Assembly: GCA_903862425.1 (NCBI GenBank)
Contig: CAIOYC010000009.1
Span: 1 to 64,000 of the forward strand
From: an uncultured Caulobacterales bacterium
GTDB taxonomy: Bacteria; Pseudomonadota; Alphaproteobacteria; Caulobacterales; Caulobacteraceae
DNA: 64,000 bases
Reading direction: 5' to 3'
In this document: positions 10,613 to 64,000 of the stretch, piece after piece
How positions within the stretch are numbered: the first letter of the stretch is position 1
Layout: every line of letters begins with the position of its first letter
Position numbers and translations under genes: made by a program
Notes under the pieces: model-generated
The model's database searches: none
Told to the model about the DNA's origin: nothing
What the model saw: only the letters and a program-made list of their open reading frames with translations

Positions 10613-11377
10613 ATGGCGGTAGGCGAGGGCGGAGTTCAGGCGGCGGTCCTGATCATCGGCGACGAGATCCTGTCCGGGCGCACCCAGGACACCAATCTGC
10701 GCGACATCGCCAAGTACTTCGGCGCCCACGGCGTGGATATCGCCGAGGCGCGGGTGGTCGGCGACATCAAGGAAGAGATCGTTTCCACCCTCAACCACCT
10801 GCGCGAACGCTACGCCTATGTGGTCACGACCGGCGGCATCGGCCCGACCCATGACGATATCACCGCCGACTGTGTGGCCGAGGCCTTTGGTGTGAAGCTG
10901 TACGAGCACCCCGAGATCATCGGCATGATGCAGACGCGCTGGGGCGGCGAGATCACCCCCGCCCGCCGCCGCATGGCCCGCGTGCCCGAGGGCGGAACGC
11001 TGGTGAAAAACCCCGTCAACGGCCCGCCCGGCTTCCAGATCGGCAACGTCTTCACCCTCGCCGGAGTGCCGCAGATCATGCGCGGCATGCTGGAGGATGT
11101 GGGCCACCGGCTGGTGGGCGGGACCGTGGTCATCTCCAAGACCATTCGCGTTGATGGCTCTGGCGAGGGCGTGATCGCCGCGCCGCTGGAAGCCGTGGCG
11201 AACGCCCACCCAGCCCTGTCGCTCGGCTCCTACCCCTTCTTCGGTCCGGACGGATACGGCTCCAGCCTGGTCGTGCGCGGACGCGACCAAGACGAGGTGG
11301 ACGCTACCCTGGTCGAGCTCGAAGCAGCTCTGCGGGCGGTCGGGATCGAGAAGATCAGCCCTGTCGAGACCTCGTAG
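10613..11377 (+). CDS. CinA N-terminal / molybdopterin-binding-domain protein
   Basis: A 254-residue protein with the MoCF-biosynthesis (MoaB/MogA-like) fold found at the N-terminus of CinA. It begins [19 protein letters not shown], followed by [24 protein letters not shown], the nucleotide or pterin-binding loop. It lacks the C-terminal CinA amidase domain, so it is the single-domain form. CinA-type proteins have ADP-ribose pyrophosphatase activity in some bacteria; that role is not shown here. AGGAG 8 bases before ATG 10613 supports this start over GTG 10595. Confidence 0.9.
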
Positions 11378-11520
11378 TTGCCGCCGGATGCATTCATGCA
11401 CAGGCCTGACGGTCAGATCAGCTCCAGCCTTGGGCGCACCAGCATGATGATCGATGGATCGACCCGCGTTATGGTCGCCGCGCTGGCCGGTAACGTGCTG
11501 GTAGCCATGTCTGACCGGCG

Positions 11521-12405
11521 TCAGGTCTTGGTGCGCAACCGCTCCAGCGCTGCCGGATAGCGGCGCGAGACCGGCGCCTCGACCCCGCCGTCGAGCACCA
11601 GCCGATAGTCACCCGATCCGGCGGGCTCCAGCAGGCGCAGGCGGTGGGCGTTGGCGAGCCAGGAGCGGTGGATGCGCACAAAACCGTGGGCGCCGAGCGC
11701 GCGCTCAATTTGCGCCAAGGTCGCCCGCATCATTCGCGCGGAGCCATCGGCGAGGCGAAATTCAACATAGTTGCCCGCCGCCTCCACCGCGACGATCTCG
11801 GCCACCGGCGTACGCAGGGTCCGACCGCCGTCGAGGATGTCGAAAGTGGCGGGAGCTTCGGCCGTCAGCGTCACTTCGGCAGGCTTGCGCCAAAACCCCT
11901 CCACCAGCCAGAACACCACGGCGATGGCGGCATAGGTCAGCACGTCCTTGCGATACTCGTAGATCAGGTCCGACCACGGCATGCGGTAGCCCACGCGTAG
12001 CGCGGCGAAGACGGCGAAGCGCACCGCCGCCATCACCACGATATGGCCTGCCGAAAACGCCAGACTTCCAACTGCATGGACAAGGGCGAAGCGCGGCCAG
12101 CGCCTGGGTTCGGGCGGAGCTATACGGGCGGCGAACAGGACGATGCCAGCCAACGCGATGATGGCCACGCCGCTGCTGCCCTCATAGACGGCCGGATAGA
12201 CCAGCGGGTCCCTGGGATGGTCGTGCAGCCAACTGAACACGTTGACCGTGATCACGGCGGCGGTGATGCCGACGATGCAGACATAGGTGCGAAGGATGCT
12301 GCTCGTCCCCCAGAACGCGCCGCTCGTCCCGCCCGCCTGCCGCTCATCCCCGCGGCTGACCCGGCGATCACCCTCATCTCGACCGCTCGCGGCGGGCTCG
12401 TTCAT
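11521..12405 (-). CDS. Membrane-bound LytTR-type transcriptional regulator
   Basis: A 294-residue regulator. The N-terminal half has about four hydrophobic spans ([64 protein letters not shown]). The C-terminal hundred residues are a LytTR DNA-binding domain ([32 protein letters not shown]). There is no receiver domain, so it may sense a membrane signal directly. It is divergent from the PQQ dehydrogenase at 12440 with 34 bases between starts, which suggests that it could control that gene; this is inference from position. Confidence 0.9.
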
Positions 12406-36520: not shown

Positions 36521-38958
36521 CCCCGTGGCTCAAGACGCTCGCCGTCGAGGACTTCCGAAGCATCCGCGGATCGGTTTCCGTCTCCCTAGATGCGCCCGTG
36601 GTGCTTGTTCACGGCCCGAACGGCACCGGGAAGACCACCCTGCTGTCCGCGATCGAACTCGGGCTGACGGGCGCCGTCGGCGCGCTCGAACGGTTCGACC
36701 CGGCCTATGTCGAGCATCTGCCGCACAAGGACGCGGAGAACGGCGAAGGTCGGGTGATGCTGACGGCGGCTTATGCCGACGCCACGCCCGAGGCCAAGTT
36801 CATGGTCAACGGGACGCTTGTTGAAGGGGAGGGGCTGCTCACGTCGGAAGACACCCGGTTTTTCGTGGAGCGCTGCTACCTCGCCCAGGCCACCCTCGGC
36901 CGCCTGCTGGAAATCTACGAACACCAGGATACGCGGAAGACTGACTCGCCGCTGACCCGATTTGTAAAGGAACTCCTGGGTCTGGCGCCGCTCGATGCTT
37001 TGGTCGAAGGGCTTCGTGCGACGGGCAATGTGCAGCGATTCCGCGAGGTGGCGCCGCTGTTCTGGGCGGCGCGCAAAGATCTGCCAACCCTCGAGCAGGA
37101 CGTAGTCAGCGCCCGCGAGCAGGAGGTGCAAACGCGGGCAGTGGTTGTCGCCAACGAAGGGGCCTTCCGCGAGCTTGCCGGTGATCTCGTGCAAGGCGAC
37201 GCCGCGATCGACCCTGAGGCGTTGGACCCACGGCTGCTCGCGTTGGCGGATGAACACAGGTTACGCCTCGAGAAACTCGTGCTGCTGCGTCGGAATCTGG
37301 CAGGGGCGGCCGAGCAAGTCCGTCTGGCGGAAGCGACAGATGCGTCGGGTGAGCGTCGGGCGGCGGAGGGCGCCGCAGCAACGGCGCGCGTTGCGCTCGA
37401 CGCCTGGATCAACGAGGCCGGCACAAAGCTCGAAACGCTGATCTCGGCGATCCAGGCCTCATTCCCTGACGTTCCCCCAAGTGCGACGGACATTGCAACC
37501 GCACACAAGGCGGCGATGGCCGCCGTCAAGGACGAGCGAGAGCGTCTGCAACGGCTGGTGACGGCCGATGAGTCGGACGGCCGGGTCCTTGCCGAAGTTC
37601 AAACCTCGGTGACGCAGGGGCTCGCCCGCATTGCGGCGATTGACACCGAGCTGACGGACTCGAAGGAGGCGGACGAAGAACTCGCCGCCGCGTTGACCGC
37701 GATCACCGCCCATATCGCCGGCGAGGATTGTCCCGTCTGCGGCCGGGACTTCTCGGAAGTCTCTGACAAACCACTCGCGGTTCACATCTCCGCGGAGATC
37801 GCGAGACTGGTCGGCGCGGTGGGCCGCCTTCGCACTTTGGTCGGTGATCGCAGCACCACCTCAGCGGCGGTCACACGCGCGCAACGGCAGGAGAGTGAAA
37901 TCACTGCACGCCGGCTGAGCCAAGTTCGGCGCGATGAGCTCAAGGTGATCCTTGCGCGCCTCGCCGAGTGGTCAAACGACTTGGAAGCTCTGGCCCTCGC
38001 CGCGGAGGCTGGTGGTGCCCTGCACAGGGCCGCTGCCGCGGCGCAACAACGCTTGGCGGAACTCAACAGCCAGGACTCCGCCGTTGGCGGTTTGCGGGCT
38101 CAACTCGCCCAATACGCCGATGATCTGGATCGCCCTCCACCGGGCTCCGACACATCACTCAGCACTGTCGTCGCGGATCTGCTGAAGGATGTCGGGGAGC
38201 AGGAGGTTCGGGAGGCCGACCGGGTGGCGGCCCGGACCCGGGCACGGGAAATTCTGGAAACGATCGCCGCGACACGACGTCAGCTAACGGTCGCTGAGGG
38301 AACGCACGCCGCAGCAGTAGCGCTGAGGGACCGCACAGCGGCTCGCAAAACTGAAGCGGACGCCCGCATCGAGATCGGTAAGGACTTGGCTGCGAAGGCA
38401 CGTGCCCTTCGCACGGAGAAAGTCCGGCAGGTGTTCAACGACGAACTCAACGCGATATGGCGCGAACTCTTCATCCGGCTTGCGCCTGACGAGGCCTTTG
38501 TCCCGGCGTTCGCCCTGCCGCAGGCGGCCGGCGGGGCAGTCGAGGCGATTCTTGAGACCCATTACCGTTCGGGTGGCAAGGGCGGGAACCCACGATCCAT
38601 GCTGAGCGCTGGGAACCTGAACACGGCGGCTTTGACGCTGTTTCTTGCGCTCAACCTGTCTGTGAAACCGGTGCTGCCTTGGCTGATCATCGACGATCCG
38701 GTCCAGAGCATGGACGACGTCCACATTGCCCAGTTCGCGGCGTTGCTGCGCACACTCAAACAGACGAAGCGGCAATTGATCATTGCCGTCCACGATCGTC
38801 AGCTGTTCGAATATCTGGCGCTTGAACTAAGCCCAGCGTTCAACGGCGACAGGCTGATCACGATCGAGCTCGGCCGTGGCGCCGACGGGATGACAACCGC
38901 GCCGTGGGATCTCAAGACCTACGAACCAGACCGAGCCATTGAGGCGAAGGCGGCGTGA
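36517..38958 (+). CDS. lmuB: SMC/Rad50-like ATPase of the Lamassu-type system (LmuB-like)
   Basis: An 813-residue ABC-type ATPase. Walker A GPNGTGKTT spans residues 33-41. Two long coiled-coil arms flank a zinc-hook-type CPVC at Cys405 and Cys408, as in Rad50. The C-terminal lobe has the signature-like SAGNLNTAALTLFLAL and Walker B WLIIDDPVQSMDD near residue 727, followed by the switch His in IIAVHDRQLFEYL. It probably senses foreign DNA ends or structures and releases or activates the SIR2 effector. All ATPase residues look intact, so the operon should be functional. Confidence 0.85.
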   Translation: MTPWLKTLAVEDFRSIRGSVSVSLDAPVVLVHGPNGTGKTTLLSAIELGLTGAVGALERFDPAYVEHLPHKDAENGEGRVMLTAAYADATPEAKFMVNGTLVEGEGLLTSEDTRFFVERCYLAQATLGRLLEIYEHQDTRKTDSPLTRFVKELLGLAPLDALVEGLRATGNVQRFREVAPLFWAARKDLPTLEQDVVSAREQEVQTRAVVVANEGAFRELAGDLVQGDAAIDPEALDPRLLALADEHRLRLEKLVLLRRNLAGAAEQVRLAEATDASGERRAAEGAAATARVALDAWINEAGTKLETLISAIQASFPDVPPSATDIATAHKAAMAAVKDERERLQRLVTADESDGRVLAEVQTSVTQGLARIAAIDTELTDSKEADEELAAALTAITAHIAGEDCPVCGRDFSEVSDKPLAVHISAEIARLVGAVGRLRTLVGDRSTTSAAVTRAQRQESEITARRLSQVRRDELKVILARLAEWSNDLEALALAAEAGGALHRAAAAAQQRLAELNSQDSAVGGLRAQLAQYADDLDRPPPGSDTSLSTVVADLLKDVGEQEVREADRVAARTRAREILETIAATRRQLTVAEGTHAAAVALRDRTAARKTEADARIEIGKDLAAKARALRTEKVRQVFNDELNAIWRELFIRLAPDEAFVPAFALPQAAGGAVEAILETHYRSGGKGGNPRSMLSAGNLNTAALTLFLALNLSVKPVLPWLIIDDPVQSMDDVHIAQFAALLRTLKQTKRQLIIAVHDRQLFEYLALELSPAFNGDRLITIELGRGADGMTTAPWDLKTYEPDRAIEAKAA

Positions 38959-52317: not shown

Positions 52318-53316
52318 ATGGGATTGAAGAAGAGCGAGCGGACGAAGCTCGAATCTGAGGTCGTTTCTAATGACGCGCGGCTGAAGCTGACTCGCATGAT
52401 CCGCAAGCGGTGTGACAGCAGCGACGTCAATGTCGGGCTGATCAATCGCAACCACTACATCAACATCGCCCGCACCGTGCAGGGGCTGCCGATCTATCGG
52501 CTCGAACCGGACGACATGGGGATGTATCAGAGCGAGGAGTTCGGCTGGCACATGGCCGAGACCGAGCTTGCCATGCGCAGGCCTTCCTCAGCAGAGCTAA
52601 TCGAGATTTTGGGCGACATGCTGCAGGAAGGCATGCTCGATCTCGGCGCCGTTAATGACATCCTCGCCGGCGACAATGTGTCGGTCCGCTTCGAGGCGAA
52701 GGGTTTCGACGACGACATCTTGGTGCGGCTTTTGTCCGACACGGAGATCGAAGAGGAGGAGGATGACGCCGAACATCCGAATATCCGTCTGCTGACAGCC
52801 CGAATGGAGGCGGCGTTTGCAGATAAGGATTTTGCGGCGGTGCTGCATGCGAGCGCCAGCATCTTCGAAACACTCGCCAAGCTCGTGTTCGACAATCCGA
52901 ATGTCGAAAACGAGACGCTTGGCGGGATGTTCGGCGGCTACCGCAAACGCTCCGAACTGCCGGAGCCTGTGCTCGACTACATCCTGGAGACCTATCAGCG
53001 GCGCAACCGCGAACCTCTGGCGGGCCACGGCGCGACCAAGCCGCCCACCGTGTCGCCGAAGGACGCTGCCGTGCTGATTGAGATGACCAAGATGTGCGTG
53101 CGGATTGAACGACGCCTTGCGACGCCGGAGCTCGATGCCAAGTCGGTTCGGGCCGCGCCGATGCCGCGGCCCGCGGTCGCAAAGGCGTCCCCTTCGCCGC
53201 CAGAGTCGCGCGTCAAGTCCAAGCCGATCAAGGTGGACAAGAAGGCCGGCAAGAAAATCAAGATAACGAAGGCAAAGGGCGCGAATTCATCCAAGCGACC
53301 CCGCGCGGCGCGCTAG
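52318..53316 (+). CDS. Abi-C-like (abortive infection) domain protein
   Basis: A 332-residue protein. The segment AVLHASASIFETLAKLVFDNPNV...ILETYQRRNREPLAGHGATKPP, followed by KDAAVLIEMTKMCVRIERRLA, matches the layout of abortive-infection C-terminal (Abi_C, HEPN-like) domains, with the AGHG as signature. The N-terminal 150 residues (GLKKSERTKLESEVVSNDARLKLTRMIRK; acidic EIEEEEDDAEH near 150) are not recognised. A long Lys/Pro/Ala-rich basic tail (last 70 residues) may bind nucleic acid. ATG 52318 is preferred over GTG 52309. It converges on the next gene with a 4-base overlap. Confidence 0.72.
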   Translation: MGLKKSERTKLESEVVSNDARLKLTRMIRKRCDSSDVNVGLINRNHYINIARTVQGLPIYRLEPDDMGMYQSEEFGWHMAETELAMRRPSSAELIEILGDMLQEGMLDLGAVNDILAGDNVSVRFEAKGFDDDILVRLLSDTEIEEEEDDAEHPNIRLLTARMEAAFADKDFAAVLHASASIFETLAKLVFDNPNVENETLGGMFGGYRKRSELPEPVLDYILETYQRRNREPLAGHGATKPPTVSPKDAAVLIEMTKMCVRIERRLATPELDAKSVRAAPMPRPAVAKASPSPPESRVKSKPIKVDKKAGKKIKITKAKGANSSKRPRAAR

Positions 53317-54122
53317 CTCGCGCCACGCGCCTGGTAGCGCACCAGATAGATGCTGACTGCGCAGGCCACGGTCACCACCAGCTCGGCTTCTTCGAAGCGA
53401 GGTTCGCCGCCTTCTTGGATGTGGCGGCCCTGTTCCGATGCAAAGCCCCAAAGCTTATGCAACGCGCTGTCCAATGGTGGCGGCAAGGTCAGCCGACCAA
53501 TGATCTTGCCAAGCGTGTCGCTGCTGCCATCGACCTGACGCGCGACGCATTCGAGCGCGGCCATGGCGTGCTGGATGGACCCGGTGACGTCGGGCGCCGG
53601 GCGCCGGGAGATATCGGTCAGCGCCTCGTGGATTTCGTTGGCGGCCGTTGGCGCGCCAGCCTGCAGCATTGTCTCAACCGCGTCGCGGGTGGCAAGCATG
53701 AACGCCTCCGACCCGCGGACCACAAGGACACCGTTTTCCAACGCCCAGCCGACGCCCAGCTCGCGAAAACTATGGTTGAGCCTGTCGGCGAACTGGCGCT
53801 GCTGCTCGCCTGAATAATCCCCCTTGCCAACTTCAGCATAGAGCCGCTCGGCGAGGTCGTAGATCTTGTACCAGGGCGCGTCGTCGACGAGCCTGGAGAC
53901 CTCGTGCTCAATATTGCCGGCCGACCAATTGTTCGGGTCGGGCCGCTTGAGAAGCACTTCGCAGACCACGTCGCGCATAGCGCTCGGGCCTAAGCCGCAG
54001 GCATAGCCCAACATTGTGATCGCATCCCGAACGCCCTCGGGCGCGTCTTCGCGAATGGTGATCTCCGCGTCAGGCGCCCTAAAGCCGAATCGCGCCGAGA
54101 AGGGGGAGTTGGGATCGTTCAT
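53313..54122 (-). CDS. AbiJ-like protein with HEPN-type C-terminus
   Basis: A 269-residue protein. The start FSARFGFRAPDAEITIREDAPEGVRDAITMLGY resembles the AbiJ N-terminal domain 4. The C-terminal part, SIQHAMAALECVARQVDGSSDTLGKIIGRL...LHKLWGFASEQGRHIQEGGEPRFEEAELVVTVACAVSIYLV, has the layout of HEPN-like abortive infection domains; the R-x4-6-H ribonuclease motif may be GRHIQEGG. It converges on the Abi-C-like gene, their stops overlapping by 4 bases. A guard or RNase role is inference. Confidence 0.72.
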   Translation of the reverse strand: MNDPNSPFSARFGFRAPDAEITIREDAPEGVRDAITMLGYACGLGPSAMRDVVCEVLLKRPDPNNWSAGNIEHEVSRLVDDAPWYKIYDLAERLYAEVGKGDYSGEQQRQFADRLNHSFRELGVGWALENGVLVVRGSEAFMLATRDAVETMLQAGAPTAANEIHEALTDISRRPAPDVTGSIQHAMAALECVARQVDGSSDTLGKIIGRLTLPPPLDSALHKLWGFASEQGRHIQEGGEPRFEEAELVVTVACAVSIYLVRYQARGAS

Positions 54123-54170
54123 GCCGTTGCCATAGCAGCGCCTCGGGCGCCTAAAAACAACCGACCCCAT

Positions 54171-56194: not shown

Positions 56195-56962
56195 TCACGC
56201 CAACAGCTTGCGAGTCGCCGCCACGGCGTCGCGCGCGCCCTTGCCAATAAATACGCCATCGCTGGCGACAGTAATAAGTTGAAAGCCCATGGCCGCCATT
56301 CTCGCGCCGTAGGCGGGTGACATGTTCTGGATGCCGGCGACCTTGCCGCGGGCCTTAGTCAGGCGAATCAGCTCAGCATAGATCGCAAGCATATCTGGTT
56401 CTTCGCGGTCTAGGATCGGGGGAAGGCCATAGGAAAAGCCGAGATCAGACGGCCCCACATAGATCCCGCTGATTCCTTCTACATTCAAAATAGCTTCCGC
56501 GTTGGCCACAGCCTCACGGGTTTCGATTTGCGGCAGGATCATCACTTCGTCATTGGCGATGGACTGGTAGGGCGAAAGCACGCCGTAGGCCGCAGCCCTC
56601 ACCGGTCCGTTTGATCGCATGCCCAGGGGCGGATAATAGCAAGCCTTGACGAGCGCCTTCGCCTCTTCTTCTGTGTTGATCATGGGAATGATGACGCCCC
56701 AGGCGCCCGCGTCGAGCACCTTGCCGAGAATTCCCGGCTCACCCCAGGGCACGCGGACGAGCGGTGTAGTCGGATAAGCCTGACAGGCCTGTATGCACGC
56801 GACGGCGGAGGCATAGTCGTGCAGACCGTGCTGCATGTCGAAGGTGATGCTGTCCCAGCCCGCCTGGACCATGAATTCGGCGGTATAGGTCGATGGCAGA
56901 AGCGACCAAGCGTTAAGGGCGACCTTGCCCTCCTGCAAATGGGCTTTGAGCGCGTTGGGCAT
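56195..56962 (-). CDS. HpcH/HpaI-type class II pyruvate aldolase
   Basis: A 255-residue aldolase that splits 2-keto-3-deoxy or 4-hydroxy-2-keto acids into pyruvate and an aldehyde. Features are WDSITFDMQHGLHDY (catalytic His), LVRVPWGEPGILGKVLDAGAWGVIIPM (Arg for the carboxylate), ILPQIETREAVANA (metal Glu) and IYVGPSDLGFSYG (metal Asp). The exact substrate is open: aromatic (homoprotocatechuate) or sugar-acid pathways use the family. It is downstream of the PLP enzyme on the same strand, with 23 bases between. Confidence 0.93.
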   Translation of the reverse strand: MPNALKAHLQEGKVALNAWSLLPSTYTAEFMVQAGWDSITFDMQHGLHDYASAVACIQACQAYPTTPLVRVPWGEPGILGKVLDAGAWGVIIPMINTEEEAKALVKACYYPPLGMRSNGPVRAAAYGVLSPYQSIANDEVMILPQIETREAVANAEAILNVEGISGIYVGPSDLGFSYGLPPILDREEPDMLAIYAELIRLTKARGKVAGIQNMSPAYGARMAAMGFQLITVASDGVFIGKGARDAVAATRKLLA

Positions 56963-56985: not shown

Positions 56986-58317
56986 TCAGAAATAGGTGCG
57001 GATCGATCCGATCACGCGGTAGTTGTCATCGACGAGGTGGATCACGCGCCACTTGTCGAAGGTGAGGCAGGGATGGGAAATCCCGAAGCCGAGCATGTCG
57101 CCGATCGCGAGCGGGGAGTCCTCAGGGGTCTCCATGATGCAATGCTGGTCGTTGAGCGTGACGACGCGATGGTCCCTAGGCGCCGCCATCGCTTGCTCGA
57201 GCCCCGATCCCGGCCGGTACCAGGCTAGCGGTGTTGGCATATGATCATAGGAGACGTCACGCTTGCCGAACGAGATGATCGCCCGGTCGGGCTCCGGCAT
57301 GGACTGCACATAGCCCCAAATCTCCAGAGCGGATCTCAACTCGCCAAGGCTGTCGGGAAGATCGGGGCGTCGCGCCTTCATCTGCTCGAAGAGATAGGTG
57401 TACATGACCGCGTCGTGGGTCAGGTAACAGCCGCTCCTGAGGAGGACACGATGCTGCTGGGCGAGCTCGACAGCGGTGAGTTTGCCGGCGACCAGGTCGA
57501 AAAAGGCTGACCCGCCCGCCGTGAGCAACACCTCGCCGGGCGCAAAAAGCTGCTCCTGTGCGCAAGCGTTGATCAGGTCGACCATCGTGTCGAGGAAGGC
57601 TTCGACCTTCACAAGGGTCTCGGGATAATCAGCGCCGCGGATAATCCCTTCGAAGCCCTCGACGCCAGAGAGCGCGATGACATCCTTGGCGTCCGCGCAA
57701 GCGCGCGCGACCTCCAGCGCTTGCGCCACGGTTCGGCAACCGGTGCGCCCCTCCGCGAATCCTATCTCCACAAGGACTTGAAGAGGACGCTTCAGGCCCC
57801 GGCGGCGCGCGATCGTCGCGAGTTGGTTGAGGTTCGCGATGGAATCGACCAAGCAATAGAATTCGAACTGCGGATCGGCGTTGAGTTCCTCCACCAGCCA
57901 TTCGATCGCCGAGCGGCCGACCAACTGATTGGCGAGGAGAATGCGCTGGTGTCCAAAGCTGCGGGCGACCTGCAGGTGATGGGGGGTCGACAAGGTGATG
58001 CCCCAAGCGCCGTCAGCGAGCTGGAGATCGAATAGGCTCGGACTGAGCGTGGTCTTGCCGTGTGGCGCAATGTCTGTTTGCGACAGCGCGGTGAATCCCT
58101 TCATCCAGGCGCTGTTGCCCCGAAGCGCGCTGAGCTTAATCACCGCCACTGGCAGCGGCAGATCTTCTGCCAGCAGGCTCCAATTTTGCTGCGCGACGTC
58201 GTCTAGTTCCACAACGCCGGCCCGGCCAGGCATGCCCTTTTCACGGGGACCAAGCGGCGCCTCGCTCGGGTGGCTTGGCAGCGTGATCGCGACCGCAGTG
58301 ATTTGTGCGATTGTCAT
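56986..58317 (-). CDS. PLP-dependent D-amino-acid deaminase/aldolase (DSD type)
   Basis: A 443-residue alanine-racemase-fold enzyme of the D-serine dehydratase-like/D-threonine aldolase group. The PLP Lys is in IAPHGKTTLSP, and the C-terminal metal site is NDQHCI...ISHPCLTFDKW (His, Cys), as in eukaryotic-type DSD. It should deaminate or cleave a D-3-hydroxy amino acid. ATG 58317 overlaps an operator and lacks a Shine-Dalgarno; the next Met (GMPGRAGVVELDD) is an alternative start. It is transcribed with the aldolase downstream. Confidence 0.85.
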   Translation of the reverse strand: MTIAQITAVAITLPSHPSEAPLGPREKGMPGRAGVVELDDVAQQNWSLLAEDLPLPVAVIKLSALRGNSAWMKGFTALSQTDIAPHGKTTLSPSLFDLQLADGAWGITLSTPHHLQVARSFGHQRILLANQLVGRSAIEWLVEELNADPQFEFYCLVDSIANLNQLATIARRRGLKRPLQVLVEIGFAEGRTGCRTVAQALEVARACADAKDVIALSGVEGFEGIIRGADYPETLVKVEAFLDTMVDLINACAQEQLFAPGEVLLTAGGSAFFDLVAGKLTAVELAQQHRVLLRSGCYLTHDAVMYTYLFEQMKARRPDLPDSLGELRSALEIWGYVQSMPEPDRAIISFGKRDVSYDHMPTPLAWYRPGSGLEQAMAAPRDHRVVTLNDQHCIMETPEDSPLAIGDMLGFGISHPCLTFDKWRVIHLVDDNYRVIGSIRTYF

Positions 58318-58333
58318 ATAGTCTTTACTAGAT
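58316..58333. promoter_or_regulatory. Regulon operator site 1 (ATATAG-N6-CTAGAT)
   Basis: ATATAG TCTTTA CTAGAT overlaps the start codon of the PLP enzyme (start at 58317). It is one of five copies of the consensus ATATAG-N6-CTATAT in 58-64 kb. Occupying this site would block start of transcription or translation. Confidence 0.7.
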
Positions 58334-58413
58334 ATCTTTTGGGAGGCTGGCAACCTCGGTAGAGCAGGCAAAGCGCATGACGCGCAAAAGCTTTGGGAAA
58401 TTTCTACAAACAG

Positions 58414-58431
58414 ACATAGTTTTTGCTAGAT
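58414..58431. promoter_or_regulatory. Regulon operator site 2 (ACATAG-N6-CTAGAT)
   Basis: ACATAG TTTTTG CTAGAT lies between the divergent PLP-enzyme operon and the SMP-30 gene, 64 bases upstream of ATG 58496. It shares the CTAGATATC end with site 1. Sites 1 and 2 are 98 bases apart, so a loop between them is possible. Confidence 0.7.
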
Positions 58432-58495
58432 ATCTGGATGAGGCGCGGCCATGGTTGTGGACCCTCAGCGAGCGCCAGGATGCGAAAGTCGAGCC

Positions 58496-59350
58496 ATGCG
58501 GTCCGTCCAAACCCTTCAAAAAAGTCTATCCTTCGGTGAAGCCCCAAGGTGGCGACCCGGAGAGGGGCTCTACTTCTCGGACATTCATGCTCAGCGCGTT
58601 CTCTTGCAGCGACTCGACGGCGAGCTTGAGGAGATCGCCGCGTTCGATGGTCCTGTGTCGGGGCTCGGCTGGCTCCCGGATGGCCGGCTGCTGGTGGTGT
58701 CCATGCATGATCGCCGGTTGCTGCGCCGCGACCGGGACGGGGTTTTTCGCACCCATGCCGATCTGAGCGAGGTGGCGGGCTGGCACGCCAACGACATGGT
58801 GGTTGACAGCAACGGTGTGGCCTATGTCGGAAACTTTGGGTTTTCGATCGCCCCCGTGCGCGAGGAACCTCGGCCGGCCAATTTGGCGCGTGTTATGCCC
58901 GACGGCGCCGTTAGCATCGCGGCTTCAGAACTCTGGTTCCCGAACGGCGCGGTCATCACCCCAGACGGTCGTACGTTCGTGATCGGCGAAAGCGCCGCGC
59001 GGCGGCTGACCGCGTTCACGATCACCAAGACCGGCCTCCTGACCGATCGCCGATCCTGGGCGACAATGCCCGACGGCGCCCTTCCCGACGGCATTTGTCT
59101 GGACGAGGAGGGAGCCATCTGGGTGGCTTCGCCGTCCTCTCGCGAACTGCTTCGTATTGCGGAAGGCGGCGCGGTCTTGGAGCGCATCAAGACCGAACAG
59201 ATGGCGGTCGCGGTCACGCTTGGTGGGCCGGACCGACGCACGCTGTTTGTTTGCACCGCCGAAAGCACCGATCCGGAGTTTTGCCGTTCGACGCACAGCG
59301 CACAGCTCCTTGCCATCAAGGTGGACATCGCTGGAGCCGGCCATCCATGA
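58496..59350 (+). CDS. SMP-30/gluconolactonase-family lactonase
   Basis: A 284-residue six-bladed propeller hydrolase. FGEAPRWRPGEGLYFSDIHAQRV carries the first metal Glu, ANDMVVDSNGVAYVGNFGF the Asn/Asp, LWFPNGAVITPDGRTFVIGES the central Asn, and LPDGICLDEEGAIWVAS the metal Asp. It probably opens a sugar or aromatic-derived lactone with Ca or Zn. ATG 58496 is used; ATG 58451 in frame is possible. Its stop overlaps the VOC gene by 4 bases. Confidence 0.9.
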   Translation: MRSVQTLQKSLSFGEAPRWRPGEGLYFSDIHAQRVLLQRLDGELEEIAAFDGPVSGLGWLPDGRLLVVSMHDRRLLRRDRDGVFRTHADLSEVAGWHANDMVVDSNGVAYVGNFGFSIAPVREEPRPANLARVMPDGAVSIAASELWFPNGAVITPDGRTFVIGESAARRLTAFTITKTGLLTDRRSWATMPDGALPDGICLDEEGAIWVASPSSRELLRIAEGGAVLERIKTEQMAVAVTLGGPDRRTLFVCTAESTDPEFCRSTHSAQLLAIKVDIAGAGHP

Positions 59351-59802
59351 AGCCGGCGCAGCTTAAACCCCTCGCCGAGGTAGAGGCGTTCTCGCACGTG
59401 GCGCTGGAGGTCAGCGACCTTGAGCGATCAATCAGTTTCTACCGCGAGGTGTTAGGCTTGGTTGTCTTTCACGACGATCGCGCCAACCCCTCTCAGCCCA
59501 ACATCAAGGGCATCGTCGCCGGGTTGGGCTTTGAGCTGGCGCAGTCGGCGCGCCCCGCAATCGTCAGCCAAAAATCGAGCCAACCGCGATTGACATCGCC
59601 GTGCCTGTCTTTCGCCGTGAAGAACTTGCAGACGGCATTCGCCAGCCTGACAGCGCGAGGCTGCGTCGCACAGCCCGAGCCTTCGGTAACCCGGGGTGTG
59701 CGATATTTTTTCTTTACAGACCCCGACGGACACCAGCTCGAACTCATAGAATTCCCTGCTCCTGTTAGGGTTCTTGCCGACCTGGCGGCCCGACTGAGCT
59801 AG
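59347..59802 (+). CDS. VOC-superfamily (glyoxalase/dioxygenase-like) protein
   Basis: A 151-residue protein with two beta-alpha-beta-beta-beta modules. FSHVALEVSDLERSISFYREVLGL is the first metal-His module and VRYFFFTDPDGHQLELIEF the second with His and Glu, so the metal triad looks complete. The family covers glyoxalase, ring-cleavage dioxygenase and isomerase activities; the reaction is not determinable. The start ATGA overlaps the lactonase stop, so it is coupled with it. Confidence 0.9.
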   Translation: MKPAQLKPLAEVEAFSHVALEVSDLERSISFYREVLGLVVFHDDRANPSQPNIKGIVAGLGFELAQSARPAIVSQKSSQPRLTSPCLSFAVKNLQTAFASLTARGCVAQPEPSVTRGVRYFFFTDPDGHQLELIEFPAPVRVLADLAARLS

Positions 59803-59824
59803 GGGCCGGGCCTGAAGCTGCCAA

Positions 59825-59857
59825 GGCGCGCCCCTAAGGTCGGCTCCAGGGCGCGCC
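59825..59857. terminator. Convergent-terminator hairpin
   Basis: GGCGCGCCC (59825-59833) and GGGCGCGCC (59849-59857) can pair as a 9-base stem with a 15-base loop. It sits between the VOC stop at 59802 (plus) and the SDR stop at 59878 (minus), so it could end both transcripts. No T-run follows, so it would not act as a strong intrinsic terminator. Confidence 0.45.
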
Positions 59858-59877
59858 GGTAGCGCAGATCATTCGGC

Positions 59878-60690
59878 TTATCCGGCCGCAGCTCTGCGCG
59901 CCTTCAGCCGCTCGGCGCCGACAGCTTCGCCTTGTTCAACCATCTTCTTCAATCGTCGCGGATTGGTGCCGAGCAGGCGCACCGTCCTTGCACGATCGGC
60001 TGGCATGAATACCTCGACGGTCTTGCGATCCATGGCCTGAAGCACGACGCCAGCCACATAGTCGGCGCTGACCGATGAGGAAGAGAAGCAGAGCGGCGCC
60101 TCGTCGCTCTGCGCTTCCTGCTCCAGCATCGGGGTTTCAGTCGAGGTCGGATGAATGATGGAGAAGGCGAAAGCGCTATCCCGCTGCTCGATCGCGAATC
60201 CATGGTGGAAGGCGCGAAGGGCATGTTTGGCCGCGGCGTAGCTTGCGAGACCTGGAAACGGCAGAAACGCGGTCATGCTGCAGACCGTAACGAACTGGCC
60301 AAAGCCCTGGCCCTGAAAGCGCGGCAGGATTGCCAACATACCGGTCAGGGGCCCCATGAAGTTGACGTTCAAGGTTTGCTGGTGCTGCGAGAGCGGTACG
60401 TTCTCGGCGTGGCCCACATGCACAATAGCTGCATTGTTAATCAAAGCGTCGACCCGGCCAAAGCGACGCCAGGCCTGATCAAGAGCCTGTTCCCAAGCCC
60501 CGGCCTGGGTGATGTCGAGACGGACGGCAAGCGCGTTCTCACCGAGTGGTTGCGCCACCGCTTCGGCCCCGCTGACATTGATATCCGCGAGGACCACCTG
60601 GTCGCCACGCGCTACCGCGAGGCGTGCTATCGCTGCGCCAATCCCCTGCGCAGCACCGGTGACAAACAGAACCTTAGATTTCTTCGCCAT
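59878..60690 (-). CDS. Short-chain dehydrogenase/reductase
   Basis: A 270-residue classical SDR. The cofactor motif is VTGAAQGIGAAIA, with NNAAIVHVGHA next. The catalytic Ser is in VCSMTAFLPFPGL, and Tyr-x3-Lys in SYAAAKHALRAFHHG. VVLADI after the cofactor strand favours NAD. Met 60690 is used because the frame upstream (to 60858) has no similarity. It has its own operator (60798) and presumably acts on an alcohol or ketone in the same pathway. Confidence 0.92.
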   Translation of the reverse strand: MAKKSKVLFVTGAAQGIGAAIARLAVARGDQVVLADINVSGAEAVAQPLGENALAVRLDITQAGAWEQALDQAWRRFGRVDALINNAAIVHVGHAENVPLSQHQQTLNVNFMGPLTGMLAILPRFQGQGFGQFVTVCSMTAFLPFPGLASYAAAKHALRAFHHGFAIEQRDSAFAFSIIHPTSTETPMLEQEAQSDEAPLCFSSSSVSADYVAGVVLQAMDRKTVEVFMPADRARTVRLLGTNPRRLKKMVEQGEAVGAERLKARRAAAG

Positions 60691-61044
60691 GCCAACTCTC
60701 GACAGATTTCGACCACCACACTGCGTCGTAAGAACCGTTTGAGGCTCACGGATCGGGATCGTCAACGCATGCTGCGCACTATGCAGCTCCGCAAAATGTA
60801 TAGCAATAACTATATCGTATCTGACCCTGCTTGGCCACTCAGTTATAAGTACTTTCAACGTGTTATGAGAATTTATAGTCAGCTAAATCATCTCGTGGTC
60901 CGGCATCGGAAATAATGCGTAAGGCCAAGCGCCTCTTACGGGCACGAAAAAAGCGCCGTCCTGCGGCACGCAGTTGGGGAACAATTGAGGCTCGGGACGG
61001 GCGGCGTGGCGTTACCATCTGGCTGCATGAAGCTCTGTGTCCAC
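60691..61044. other. Intergenic region with SDR promoter
   Basis: About 350 bases between the SDR start and the hairpin after the TonB receptor. It contains operator site 3 at 60798-60815 in the SDR promoter and an AT-rich segment at 60795-60890. Short frames in it have no similarity. Confidence 0.45.
60798..60815. promoter_or_regulatory. Regulon operator site 3 (GTATAG-N6-CTATAT)
   Basis: GTATAG CAATAA CTATAT is 108 bases upstream of the SDR start at 60690. The reverse reading is ATATAG TTATTG CTATAC, matching sites 2 and 4 in spacer pattern (T..TTG). Confidence 0.7.
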
Positions 61045-61071
61045 GCACCGACGGCGGGGAGCCGCCGGTGC
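61045..61071 (-). terminator. Hairpin after the TonB receptor gene
   Basis: GCACCGACGGC (61045-61055) and GCCGCCGGTGC (61061-61071) pair over 11 bases with one mismatch and a 5-base loop. It begins 12 bases after the receptor stop (minus strand). No T-run follows, so Rho or pausing may be needed. Confidence 0.5.
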
Positions 61072-61083
61072 GCAAAGTCGCCT

Positions 61084-63387
61084 CTAGAATTTGTAGTTGA
61101 CCTCTAAGCCGTACCAGCGCGGCGTGCCGACTACCGGCTGAATGAACCCAAAGGGCGATGTGGAGTCGAAAGCGTCGTTCCAGTACTTCTTGCCGCCAAG
61201 GTTCTTGATGTATCCAGCGATCTCAACGGGACCGCAATCATAGGCCACACGCAGATTCTCGATCCAGTAGGCTGGCTGAGCCAAGTATGGATCGCTGGTG
61301 CTGTCGTAGAACTGGTGCCCTTTGTAGCTCGCATTGAGCTGGAAGCTGAGACTGTTTTGTCCGATCGGCACCTTGTAGTCCGCCATCAGGAACCCCGAGA
61401 CGTGCGGAGAGAATGCGAGTTGCAGGCCCTGCAGCGAGGAGGTGCCTGGGACGAGTACGCTGAACTTGTCGATCTTGGTGTCAAGCAGGCCAAGATTGGC
61501 CGTCAGCGTAAGACTGTGGGTTGGCCTGCCAACAAGCTCGATATCGGCGCCGAAGTTGTGTGCGGCCTTGGCGCTGGTCAGCGAATTGAGCGGGCCATCC
61601 GGGCTCGGTACGAGGGAGAAGACCTGCAGGTCGTGATATTGCGTGTAGAAGATCGACGCATTCGCCACGAGGCGACGGTCGAACAGGCTCGATTTGATCC
61701 CAATCTCATAGGACGTGTCTGTTTCCGGCGGTACGGGCTGAATCTGCACCGCAGCCTGAGCCGGGTCCGTTGAGAGGAAGCCGCCGTTGAAATCGCCGCT
61801 TTTGAATCCGGTGGCGATGCTCGCATAGGCCATGATGTTGCGGTTGAAACTGTAGTTCACGCCCGCGCGCCAGGTGAATTCGCCATCGTCAAGGGCTGGA
61901 ATGGTGACGCCGGCCGGCAGAAGCGACGAGGGCGGTCCAAAATTGCCTTCGCCGCCGTCCTGATAGGCGACTGTACCTTGGTACTGGAACGTGCGCCGCT
62001 CGTGGGTGTAGCGACCGCCCAAGATAAGCTTGAGCTTGTCGGTGATATTATATTCGCCCTGGCCGAAGATGGCCTCTGCGTCCGTGACCTGGCGGCTACG
62101 ATCAGTTTGCTTCTGAGCAAGTCCGTCACCGGATCCGGGTCCAAAAAACTGGTCGAAATCCAGTAGCAGCTCAAGGGGCTGGTTCTGCTGCAGATTTTCG
62201 TGAAGGTAATAGACGCCGGCCGTCCAGTTGTACTTAGCTTCGCTATGGCTTGCCCGGAACTCTTGGGTGAAGGCGGTGCTGCGAACGCCCCAATTGATTT
62301 CGAGCTCTCGATAAGGCGAGGAATCGGTATCCTCAGGCTCGATCTTGTCGCTGTGCTCGATCGCGGAGATCGACGTTAGGTTCAGATAGCCCGGCGACCA
62401 GTCGACGCGCAGGCTGGCATTGATCTCGTTGACACGAAGATGAGCCTGCTTGTTGAAGGCTCCATCGTAGAACCCTTTACCCTGGCTGTAACCGAAGATG
62501 TCGACGCACTGGTCGGCGCGCACCTGTGACACCGAGCACAGGGTGGGGTTGAAGAAGAGGGTTCCCGGCTTGAAGTTTCCAAGGTGCCCGTATTCAGCTG
62601 GCCGCGTGTCGATCTGCCCGCCATTGACGTTCAGCAAGATTTTGAGGTCGTCCTTGGGCTTCCATTGGAGTTGGCCCCGCACAGCATAGTCGTTCGCTCC
62701 GTTTTCCATCTTGCCGGTGAGGCTGTTCTTCTCATAGCCCTCGGAATTATTTTTCACGAAGGCGATGCGACCATCCAGCCCTGGGGCGATCGGGCCGCCA
62801 ACGGCGCCTTCGATATTCCAGGTATTGAACGAGCTATATTCGACATGCAGGTTGCCAGTGACGTAATCGGTCGGCTTGGCGCTGACATAGTTTATGGCGC
62901 CGCCGGTGGTATTCATGCCGTACAGGGTGCCCTGAGGGCCCTTCAGCACCTCGATACGTTCAAGGTCGAAGATGGAGAAGGTCTGCGAAGCCGACGACGT
63001 TAGATAGACGTCGTCCACATAAACCGCGATCGGACCGGCGTTATTGGTATTCTCGTCGTTAAGGCCGATCCCGCGGATGGTGATGATGGGTTGATTTCCC
63101 GCGCCCTGGGACAAGGCGATGTTCACGTTGGGCGTCACCATGCCGATGTCGGTGGAAGTCTGAATTCCAAGCTTCTGGATGTCTTGCGCCGAGTAGGCGT
63201 TGATGGTGATCGGCACCTTCTGAACGTTTTCGCTGCGGTGCTGCGCGGTGACGGTGATCTCCTCAACCACGCCCGCCGGCGCGGTCGTCGACGGCCCGGC
63301 GACGGTCTGCGCCGCCGCGGCCGATACGAGCGCCATCGTCAAACTTACCGCGCTCGCCGAGAGCGCCAATCGAATCCGCAAAGACAT
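61084..63387 (-). CDS. TonB-dependent outer-membrane receptor
   Basis: A 767-residue receptor. A signal peptide is at about 1-27 (LVSAAAAQT). The plug starts with VEEITVTAQHRSENVQKVPITINAYS and contains PIITIRGIGLNDENTNNAGPIAVYVDDVYL and ERIEVLKGPQGTLYGMNTTGGAINYVSAKP, the type seen in receptors for plant-derived or aromatic compounds. The barrel ends in VNYKF with terminal Phe. Operator sites 4 and 5 precede it. Likely brings in the substrate for the 56-64 kb enzymes. Confidence 0.95.
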   Translation of the reverse strand: MSLRIRLALSASAVSLTMALVSAAAAQTVAGPSTTAPAGVVEEITVTAQHRSENVQKVPITINAYSAQDIQKLGIQTSTDIGMVTPNVNIALSQGAGNQPIITIRGIGLNDENTNNAGPIAVYVDDVYLTSSASQTFSIFDLERIEVLKGPQGTLYGMNTTGGAINYVSAKPTDYVTGNLHVEYSSFNTWNIEGAVGGPIAPGLDGRIAFVKNNSEGYEKNSLTGKMENGANDYAVRGQLQWKPKDDLKILLNVNGGQIDTRPAEYGHLGNFKPGTLFFNPTLCSVSQVRADQCVDIFGYSQGKGFYDGAFNKQAHLRVNEINASLRVDWSPGYLNLTSISAIEHSDKIEPEDTDSSPYRELEINWGVRSTAFTQEFRASHSEAKYNWTAGVYYLHENLQQNQPLELLLDFDQFFGPGSGDGLAQKQTDRSRQVTDAEAIFGQGEYNITDKLKLILGGRYTHERRTFQYQGTVAYQDGGEGNFGPPSSLLPAGVTIPALDDGEFTWRAGVNYSFNRNIMAYASIATGFKSGDFNGGFLSTDPAQAAVQIQPVPPETDTSYEIGIKSSLFDRRLVANASIFYTQYHDLQVFSLVPSPDGPLNSLTSAKAAHNFGADIELVGRPTHSLTLTANLGLLDTKIDKFSVLVPGTSSLQGLQLAFSPHVSGFLMADYKVPIGQNSLSFQLNASYKGHQFYDSTSDPYLAQPAYWIENLRVAYDCGPVEIAGYIKNLGGKKYWNDAFDSTSPFGFIQPVVGTPRWYGLEVNYKF

Positions 63388-63427
63388 CGGAGTTCCCCCT
63401 TTATCGCCATTTCACTGTGGCAACTCA

Positions 63428-63445
63428 ACATAGCAAAAACTATAT
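63428..63445. promoter_or_regulatory. Regulon operator site 4 (ACATAG-N6-CTATAT)
   Basis: ACATAG CAAAAA CTATAT, 41 bases upstream of the TonB receptor start. In reverse it is ATATAG TTTTTG CTATGT, with the same spacer as site 2. Confidence 0.7.
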
Positions 63446-63640
63446 CATTGGCAACAGTTCGATGACATGGCGCGGACGGGTGGGTCAGGCGCCTCGTTCC
63501 TGAACAAAATTATGGCCTATTCCGGCATAAGTGCCGGAATAATGACTCACTTTTATGGGGTGAGCCTGGAACTGGCCATCCACCCGCGGCGGAGCCTGCC
63601 CGCTGCCAATCGGGAGGACCGCAGGCGGGCCAGATCAACA

Positions 63641-63658
63641 ATCTAGCGTATACTATAT
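63641..63658. promoter_or_regulatory. Regulon operator site 5 (ATCTAG-N6-CTATAT)
   Basis: ATCTAG CGTATA CTATAT, further upstream of the TonB receptor. In reverse it is ATATAG TATACG CTAGAT. It may be an auxiliary site paired with site 4. Confidence 0.62.
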
Positions 63659-63747: not shown

Positions 63748-64000
63748 TCAGGCGTCGAAACCGGGACTTTCGCGCTGGAGCCGCCGCAGGCACCCGCTCC
63801 AAGCTAGCTTGCCGATCGGCTCCATACTGGGGCCGCGGCTTGCAGTCTGCCGCGCGACCTCCAGAATCGAAGCTTTCGGTGCGAACAGAACACTATCGCG
63901 GCCACCCGACAGCGCCATCACCTGCTGCTTGCAGGCGCGCTCCAGATAGAACATGCCGACCCAGCACCCGGCCGCGCTCTGGCCCACCGACAGGGTGCCG
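63748..64000 (-). CDS. Class II aldolase/adducin-family protein, C-terminal part
   Basis: The gene runs off the right end of the window; only about 83 C-terminal residues are visible. The reading LSVGQSAAGCWVGMFYLERACKQQVMAL matches the C-terminal helix of class II aldolase/adducin proteins, where (F/L)LER(A/C)CQ.Q is usual. The metal-binding His residues would lie outside the window. It is on the same strand as the TonB receptor and may be part of the same regulon. Confidence 0.65.
   Translation of the reverse strand, partial: GTLSVGQSAAGCWVGMFYLERACKQQVMALSGGRDSVLFAPKASILEVARQTASRGPSMEPIGKLAWSGCLRRLQRESPGFDA

Follow-up and report, generated by a model that had tools for sequence, protein, structure and literature searches.

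A nine-site palindromic operator and a TetR-family regulator predicted to control an uptake-and-breakdown gene cluster in an uncultured Caulobacterales bacterium

Palindromes of the ATATAG-N6-CTATAT type recur near the right end of the window, the 64,000-nucleotide stretch of an uncultured Caulobacterales genome analysed here, and raise the question of which protein reads them and what the genes behind them accomplish. A sequence-only reading had described five such sites as the operator of a new catabolic regulon, placed a site before every transcription unit, expected the regulator close by on the right and matched the enzymes to no known pathway. We read the same contig (C9) to 94 kb, with positions beyond 64,000 sharing the window's numbering.

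Gene content and palindromic sites of the cluster

The cluster extends over 18 kb from an HpaI aldolase gene (56195) to an amidohydrolase gene (74156), and its 14 genes belong to uptake and breakdown families, from which the label "catabolic" is drawn. Their order is HpaI aldolase with PLP deaminase, SMP-30 with VOC, SDR, TonB receptor, class II aldolase with RidA, and TetR (TetR1), followed further right by MFS1, a DMFase-like acylase, MFS2, and a P450 with the amidohydrolase. The HpaI/HpcH-type pyruvate aldolase (56195..56962, minus strand; Pfam PF03328, E 7e-31) shares a unit with the deaminase (56986..58317, minus strand; PF14031, E 1.6e-17), a fold-type III PLP D-amino acid deaminase of D-serine deaminase-like and OngC-like type that matches structure 3gwq at E 7e-100. 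Against TIGR02311, the HpaI (4-hydroxy-2-oxoheptanedioate aldolase) equivalog family, the aldolase scores 178.8 bits, short of the 368.8 cut-off; only the broad family PF03328 recognises it, and its score lies far under the NCBI cut-off for any named aldolase. The SMP-30/gluconolactonase-family protein (58451..59350, plus strand; PF08450, E 2e-45) has its stop overlapped by the VOC/glyoxalase-family protein (59347..59802, plus strand; PF00903, E 6.5e-13), and the minus strand then carries the short-chain dehydrogenase/reductase (59878..60690; PF00106, E 1.7e-43), the TonB-dependent outer-membrane receptor (61084..63387; PF00593, E 9e-40, and PF07715) and the class II aldolase/adducin-family protein (63748-64536, with 63748..64000 inside the window; PF00596, E 2e-45). 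Outside the window, Pfam assigns on C9 RidA (64570-65073, minus), MFS1 (66128-67333, plus), the DMFase-like acylase (67377-about 69593, minus), MFS2 (69821-70996, plus), the P450 (71141-72364, plus) and the amidohydrolase (72411-74156, plus), the starts of MFS1 and the acylase being set by homology. A second TetR gene, TetR2 (C9 74275-74883), lies at the right edge, and just left of the cluster the minus strand encodes an AbiJ N-terminal domain protein (53313-54170; PF18863, E 2.9e-17), from a family linked to phage abortive infection.

The five palindromes of the sequence-only reading are all present, at 58316, 58414, 60798, 63428 and 63641; they are annotated without strand, and the TAG-N6-CTA core is invariant in 5/5, as had been claimed. 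Operator 1 (58316..58333; ATATAGTCTTTACTAGAT, ATATAG-TCTTTA-CTAGAT; 23.6 bits by the weight matrix described below) lies in the divergent deaminase/SMP-30 region and does overlap the ATG start codon of the PLP deaminase, its centre falling 8 bp upstream of the start. Operator 2 (58414..58431; ACATAGTTTTTGCTAGAT, ACATAG-TTTTTG-CTAGAT; 23.4 bits) is centred 28 bp upstream of the SMP-30 lactonase start, operator 3 (60798..60815; GTATAGCAATAACTATAT, GTATAG-CAATAA-CTATAT; 29.3 bits) 116 bp upstream of the SDR start, and operator 4 (63428..63445; ACATAGCAAAAACTATAT, ACATAG-CAAAAA-CTATAT; 28.6 bits) 50 bp upstream of the TonB receptor start. Operator 5 (63641..63658; ATCTAGCGTATACTATAT, ATCTAG-CGTATA-CTATAT; 24.6 bits) has the receptor start 262 bp downstream and the class II aldolase stop upstream, which makes it the receptor's second upstream site. 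Brought into a single orientation, the spacer reported as common to three of the five sites reads TTNTTG; two of the three lie on the other strand.

The count of five has to be raised to nine, with four more sites at C9 65171, 66071, 69754 and 71066, all outside the window: operator 6 (65168-65185; 29.1 bits), operator 7 (66068-66085; 23.1 bits), operator 8 (69751-69768; 32.2 bits) and operator 9 (71063-71080; 30.3 bits). Each of the cluster's eight promoter regions thus has one or two sites, centred 8-262 bp upstream of starts, so that the claim of a site before every unit stands for the promoter regions, with the amendment that the RidA/class II aldolase unit is served by 65171 and not by 63641.

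The clustering of these sites far exceeds expectation. When up to three mismatches to the 18-mer are allowed, the window holds nine matches (four of which are background) vs 2.05 expected, a count reached by 0/100 shuffles. The stricter pattern TAGYNNNNRCTA (TAGY-N4-RCTA) occurs at 26 places in the 3.69-Mb genome, nine of them within the 12.8 kb of the cluster where an even spread would predict 0.09; three of the other 17 are near two paralogous TetR genes, and the exact string ATAGN6CTATAT occurs five times genome-wide, always in the cluster. The pattern is therefore not equally frequent at unrelated promoters, the outcome that would have spoken against the sequence-only reading. A weight matrix trained exclusively on sites of other species, namely those of G136 and of two Novosphingobium clusters, gives the nine sites 23.1-32.2 bits, with the next best position in 94 kb at 6.6 and the best score on ten random 94-kb sequences at 12.1 bits.

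TetR1 and its operator across genomes

The regulator expected on the right is found at C9 65184-65858 (minus strand), 1.2 kb past the window's right edge. TetR1 has an N-terminal TetR_N helix-turn-helix (PF00440, E 7.1e-11, 42.2 bits vs a cut-off of 24), with no Pfam TetR_C family match in its C-terminal half and no NCBIfam match at E <= 1e-10. The model of an 82% identical orthologue from Caulobacteraceae MAG_BA202 (locus L094), the closest named relative, has the ordinary TetR fold with nine helices (pLDDT 93), and compares with EthR, FasR and DesT at Z 15-17.6 over about 180 residues; as these relatives share only 9-15% identity, the ligand cannot be read from the TetR1 fold. In the same locus the class II aldolase frame seemingly breaks off after about 30 residues (11161-11977) and the left half of the cluster was not found beyond it, in what appears to be a rearrangement or an assembly break.

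Across 80 TetR1-homologue loci of named genomes (1.45 Mb in total), TAG-N6-CTA occurs 147 times and in 72/80 loci, being absent from eight, vs 11-19 occurrences for each other spacer; spacers 3-5 and 7-9 are about 10-fold less frequent than spacer 6. In 131/147 matches TAG is followed by a pyrimidine and CTA preceded by a purine. Within 500 bp of the tetR frame there are 57 spacer-6 matches, in 41/80 loci, vs 0-5 for other spacers, and 29 loci from the same taxonomic order around TetR1 homologues have TAG-N6-CTA 22 times and other spacers 0-3 times. The association is kept down to about 33-40% identity, also at loci lacking catabolic genes, which supports the notion of a shared-operator regulon predicted from the window. 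Sites likewise persist in the reshuffled clusters of G136 (L064/L065), Novosphingobium (L095-L097) and the plasmid (L193) of N. capsulatum, in which the TetR1 orthologue is U0041_RS21125, and near the genome's own TetR1 paralogues on contigs C16 and C19.

The C16 paralogue (36043; 34% identical) belongs to a paralogous module (C16:31000-42000, locus L189) with class II aldolase-like and MFS genes, a TonB receptor 50% identical to that of the window, and tandem operators at 38247 and 38263, 16 bp apart. For the C19 paralogue (124038) the site is at a distance of about 1.8 kb and immediately precedes an aminotransferase-like reading frame. Tandem operators exactly 17 bp apart were seen in L133 (5552/5569), L137 (9803/9820), L154 (9846/9863) and L169 (9861/9878), a spacing that suggests two dimers bound side by side. 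Eight Sphingopyxis-type loci (L111, L116, L118-L120, L122, L125 and L128) share a nearly identical site, ATATAGTCTTGACTAACT, located upstream of tetR at a distance of about 2.5 kb, a placement from which we infer that the TetR1 homologue probably controls the gene block on the site's side.

The operator consensus reads TATAGY-N4-RCTATA in this lineage vs GATAGY-N4-RCTATC in the wider family, the first G of the latter being replaced by T. In lineages whose sites have T instead of G at the second base ahead of the TAG core, TetR1 position 77 is D, as against mostly N in the others; a few neighbouring positions differ too, and the correlation is confounded by ancestry.

Predicted control by TetR1

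These data support a model, to which we assign a probability of roughly 0.87, where the palindrome is the operator of TetR1 and where TetR1 runs the cluster as a regulon. Without substrate, a TetR1 dimer on the nine sites would block transcription from the eight promoter regions and perhaps also from its own promoter, through a site shared with MFS1; the nearest site is 218 bp from tetR1, which makes autoregulation uncertain. The substrate or an early intermediate, probably the inducer, would bind the C-terminal domain and release TetR1 from DNA, and release would jointly switch on uptake, by the TonB receptor and the two MFS permeases, and breakdown, by the acylases, P450, lactonase, deaminase with RidA, HpaI aldolase and SDR.

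Repression is the most likely mode of action, judged from six sites, of which one covers a start codon and the rest lie between 28 and 70 bp ahead of a start. That TetR1 might instead act as an activator or dual regulator would suit the three sites 104-262 bp upstream of starts, and the promoter and terminator scan is uninformative in this genome (5 promoter-like matches, 2.9 expected); we regard this reading as improbable in view of the six sites 8-70 bp from a start, a position of blocking type, and of the established fact that most characterised TetR proteins are repressors.

TetR2, as another TetR gene near the cluster, could in principle read the operators in place of TetR1, and the evidence makes this very improbable: TAG-N6-CTA is found in 0/14 TetR2-homologue loci, on which ground TetR2 was rejected as the regulator; TetR2 does not accompany the G136 and Novosphingobium clusters; and its promoter has no matching operator, the only TAG-N6-CTA being a weak one at 74850, inside its coding region. 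A second copy of TetR2 on contig C3 (47288-47862; loci L186 and L187) is split over two frames, in pieces 82% and 75% identical, and is apparently a broken paralogue. That the palindromes, instead of being operators, represent promoter elements rich in AT or fortuitous matches within AT-rich intergenic sequence, as their TATA flanks resembling -10 elements and their overlap with some promoter-like matches might suggest, can hardly be credited given the roughly 10-fold preference for spacer 6, the conservation of the dyad across genera, and the lack of sites both in the TetR2 loci and in 16 control loci with a PLP deaminase homologue but no TetR1.

A tentative pathway and its known counterparts

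Literature searches, which also used exact 12-mer operator strings, returned nothing on the operator, on the TetR subfamily or on this combination of enzymes; with most subscription journals outside their coverage, they give limited evidence for the novelty of all three. PheR of Sphingobium (PMC13273656), considered as a parallel, is unrelated, being an IclR-family protein with a GCAACG core.

As to what the regulon does, we suggest only tentatively, at somewhat less than even odds, a non-phosphorylative breakdown of an N-acylated 2-amino-3,4-dihydroxy (amino-sugar) acid, its steps ordered by homology and chemistry. The acylases would deacylate an N-acylated amino compound, the lactonase would open a lactone, the PLP enzyme, aided by RidA, would deaminate the 2-amino-3,4-dihydroxy acid to a 2-keto-3-deoxy acid, and the HpaI enzyme would cleave this by retro-aldol reaction to pyruvate and an aldehyde. 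A beta-hydroxy amino acid deaminase followed by an HpaI-type aldolase is chemically sensible for such an acid, and the lactonase and acylases appear to fit upstream. The P450, VOC protein and class II aldolase have no step in this scheme, and the acylases vary by cluster: none was found near the N. capsulatum cluster, and the amidohydrolase is absent from G136.

There is an even chance that the regulon is correctly drawn and its substrate is another, such as N-acyl-homoserine lactones, N-acyl beta-amino acids, phytosphingosine-like amino alcohols or a xenobiotic amide. The closest solved relative of the DMFase-like enzyme is the N-acetyl-(R)-beta-phenylalanine acylase 8huy; acylase homologues in Roseomonas and Palleronia adjoin aminotransferases of class III or of the aspartate-aminotransferase family, and a P450 with TonB uptake suits larger substrates. 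For the amino-sugar acid speak the combination of deaminase, RidA and D-aminoacylase, a logic tested in the ong pathway (PMC9537276), and the situation in Agrobacterium larrymoorei, where the counterparts of the deaminase, HpaI aldolase, SDR and RidA have glycoside hydrolases, an aldose epimerase and a gluconolactonase as neighbours.

More tentative again is the joint proposition that a single TetR subfamily, undescribed and distributed across Caulobacterales and Sphingomonadales as well as some Burkholderiales, Xanthomonadales and pseudomonads, might control a wide variety of TonB/MFS uptake-and-breakdown modules through the same conserved 12-bp operator core. In this proposition the module here would encode a likewise undescribed route for N-acylated 2-amino-3,4-dihydroxy acids, non-phosphorylative and with an HpaI-type aldolase in place of the ong kinase and phosphate aldolase. 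Searching for TAGY-N4-RCTA next to a TetR1 homologue points to genes under common control and aids the prediction of what the individual receptors take up, which gives access to dozens of TonB-receptor modules of Caulobacterales and sphingomonads that are still uncharacterised; the gene set so defined predicts a testable amino-sugar-acid-like pathway and gives a catabolic context to the DMFase-like acylases, a poorly understood family.

The statement that the enzymes match no known pathway needs qualification, as ong, the nearest experimentally tested counterpart, is a partial parallel. In this pathway, by which Pseudoalteromonas prydzensis ACAM 620 breaks down chitin oxidatively through GlcNAc1A, OngB deacetylates GlcNAc1A, the fold-type III PLP deaminase OngC converts GlcN1A to 2-keto-3-deoxygluconate, and growth requires the RidA protein OngD (PMC9537276). 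Both systems combine TonB uptake, a D-aminoacylase-type enzyme (the deacetylase OngB in ong), a fold-III PLP deaminase (OngC in ong, a candidate counterpart here), RidA (OngD) and repressor control, the last predicted here. The ong gene set is also present on a plasmid of Pseudoalteromonas sp. CF6-2, whose OngC-type deaminase is 38% identical to ours over 93% and whose D-aminoacylase resembles our amidohydrolase at about 33% over part of its length. A sugar kinase (KdgK), an RpiR-type OngR and a GH20 OngA were not found among the cluster genes, so that the cluster is not an ong cluster and membership of that pathway is not claimed: where ong has the RpiR repressor OngR and a KDG kinase, this cluster has a TetR protein and an HpaI-type aldolase, and it adds the DMFase-like acylase, SMP-30, SDR, VOC, class II aldolase, P450 and two MFS permeases.

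The deaminase is closer to that of A. larrymoorei plasmid pAlCFBP5477 (WP_234882991 region; 56%) than to the ong-cluster enzyme, and the HpaI aldolase (58%), SDR (54%), RidA (63%), DMFase-like (34%) and SMP-30 (30%) proteins also have counterparts there. That cluster differs in its GntR regulator, ABC transporters, aldose epimerase and aldehyde dehydrogenase, and no TAGY-N4-RCTA sites were found in it. Finally, TetR control of a neighbouring catabolic cluster is of a familiar kind: local regulons of the KstR, FadR, DesT and EthR types likewise pair one TetR protein with short palindromic operators in neighbouring promoters, and the present system differs from them in TetR1 itself, whose C-terminal domain matched no Pfam TetR_C family and which as a whole matched no NCBIfam family at E <= 1e-10, and in its operator, TAGY-N4-RCTA, present in nine copies in one cluster.
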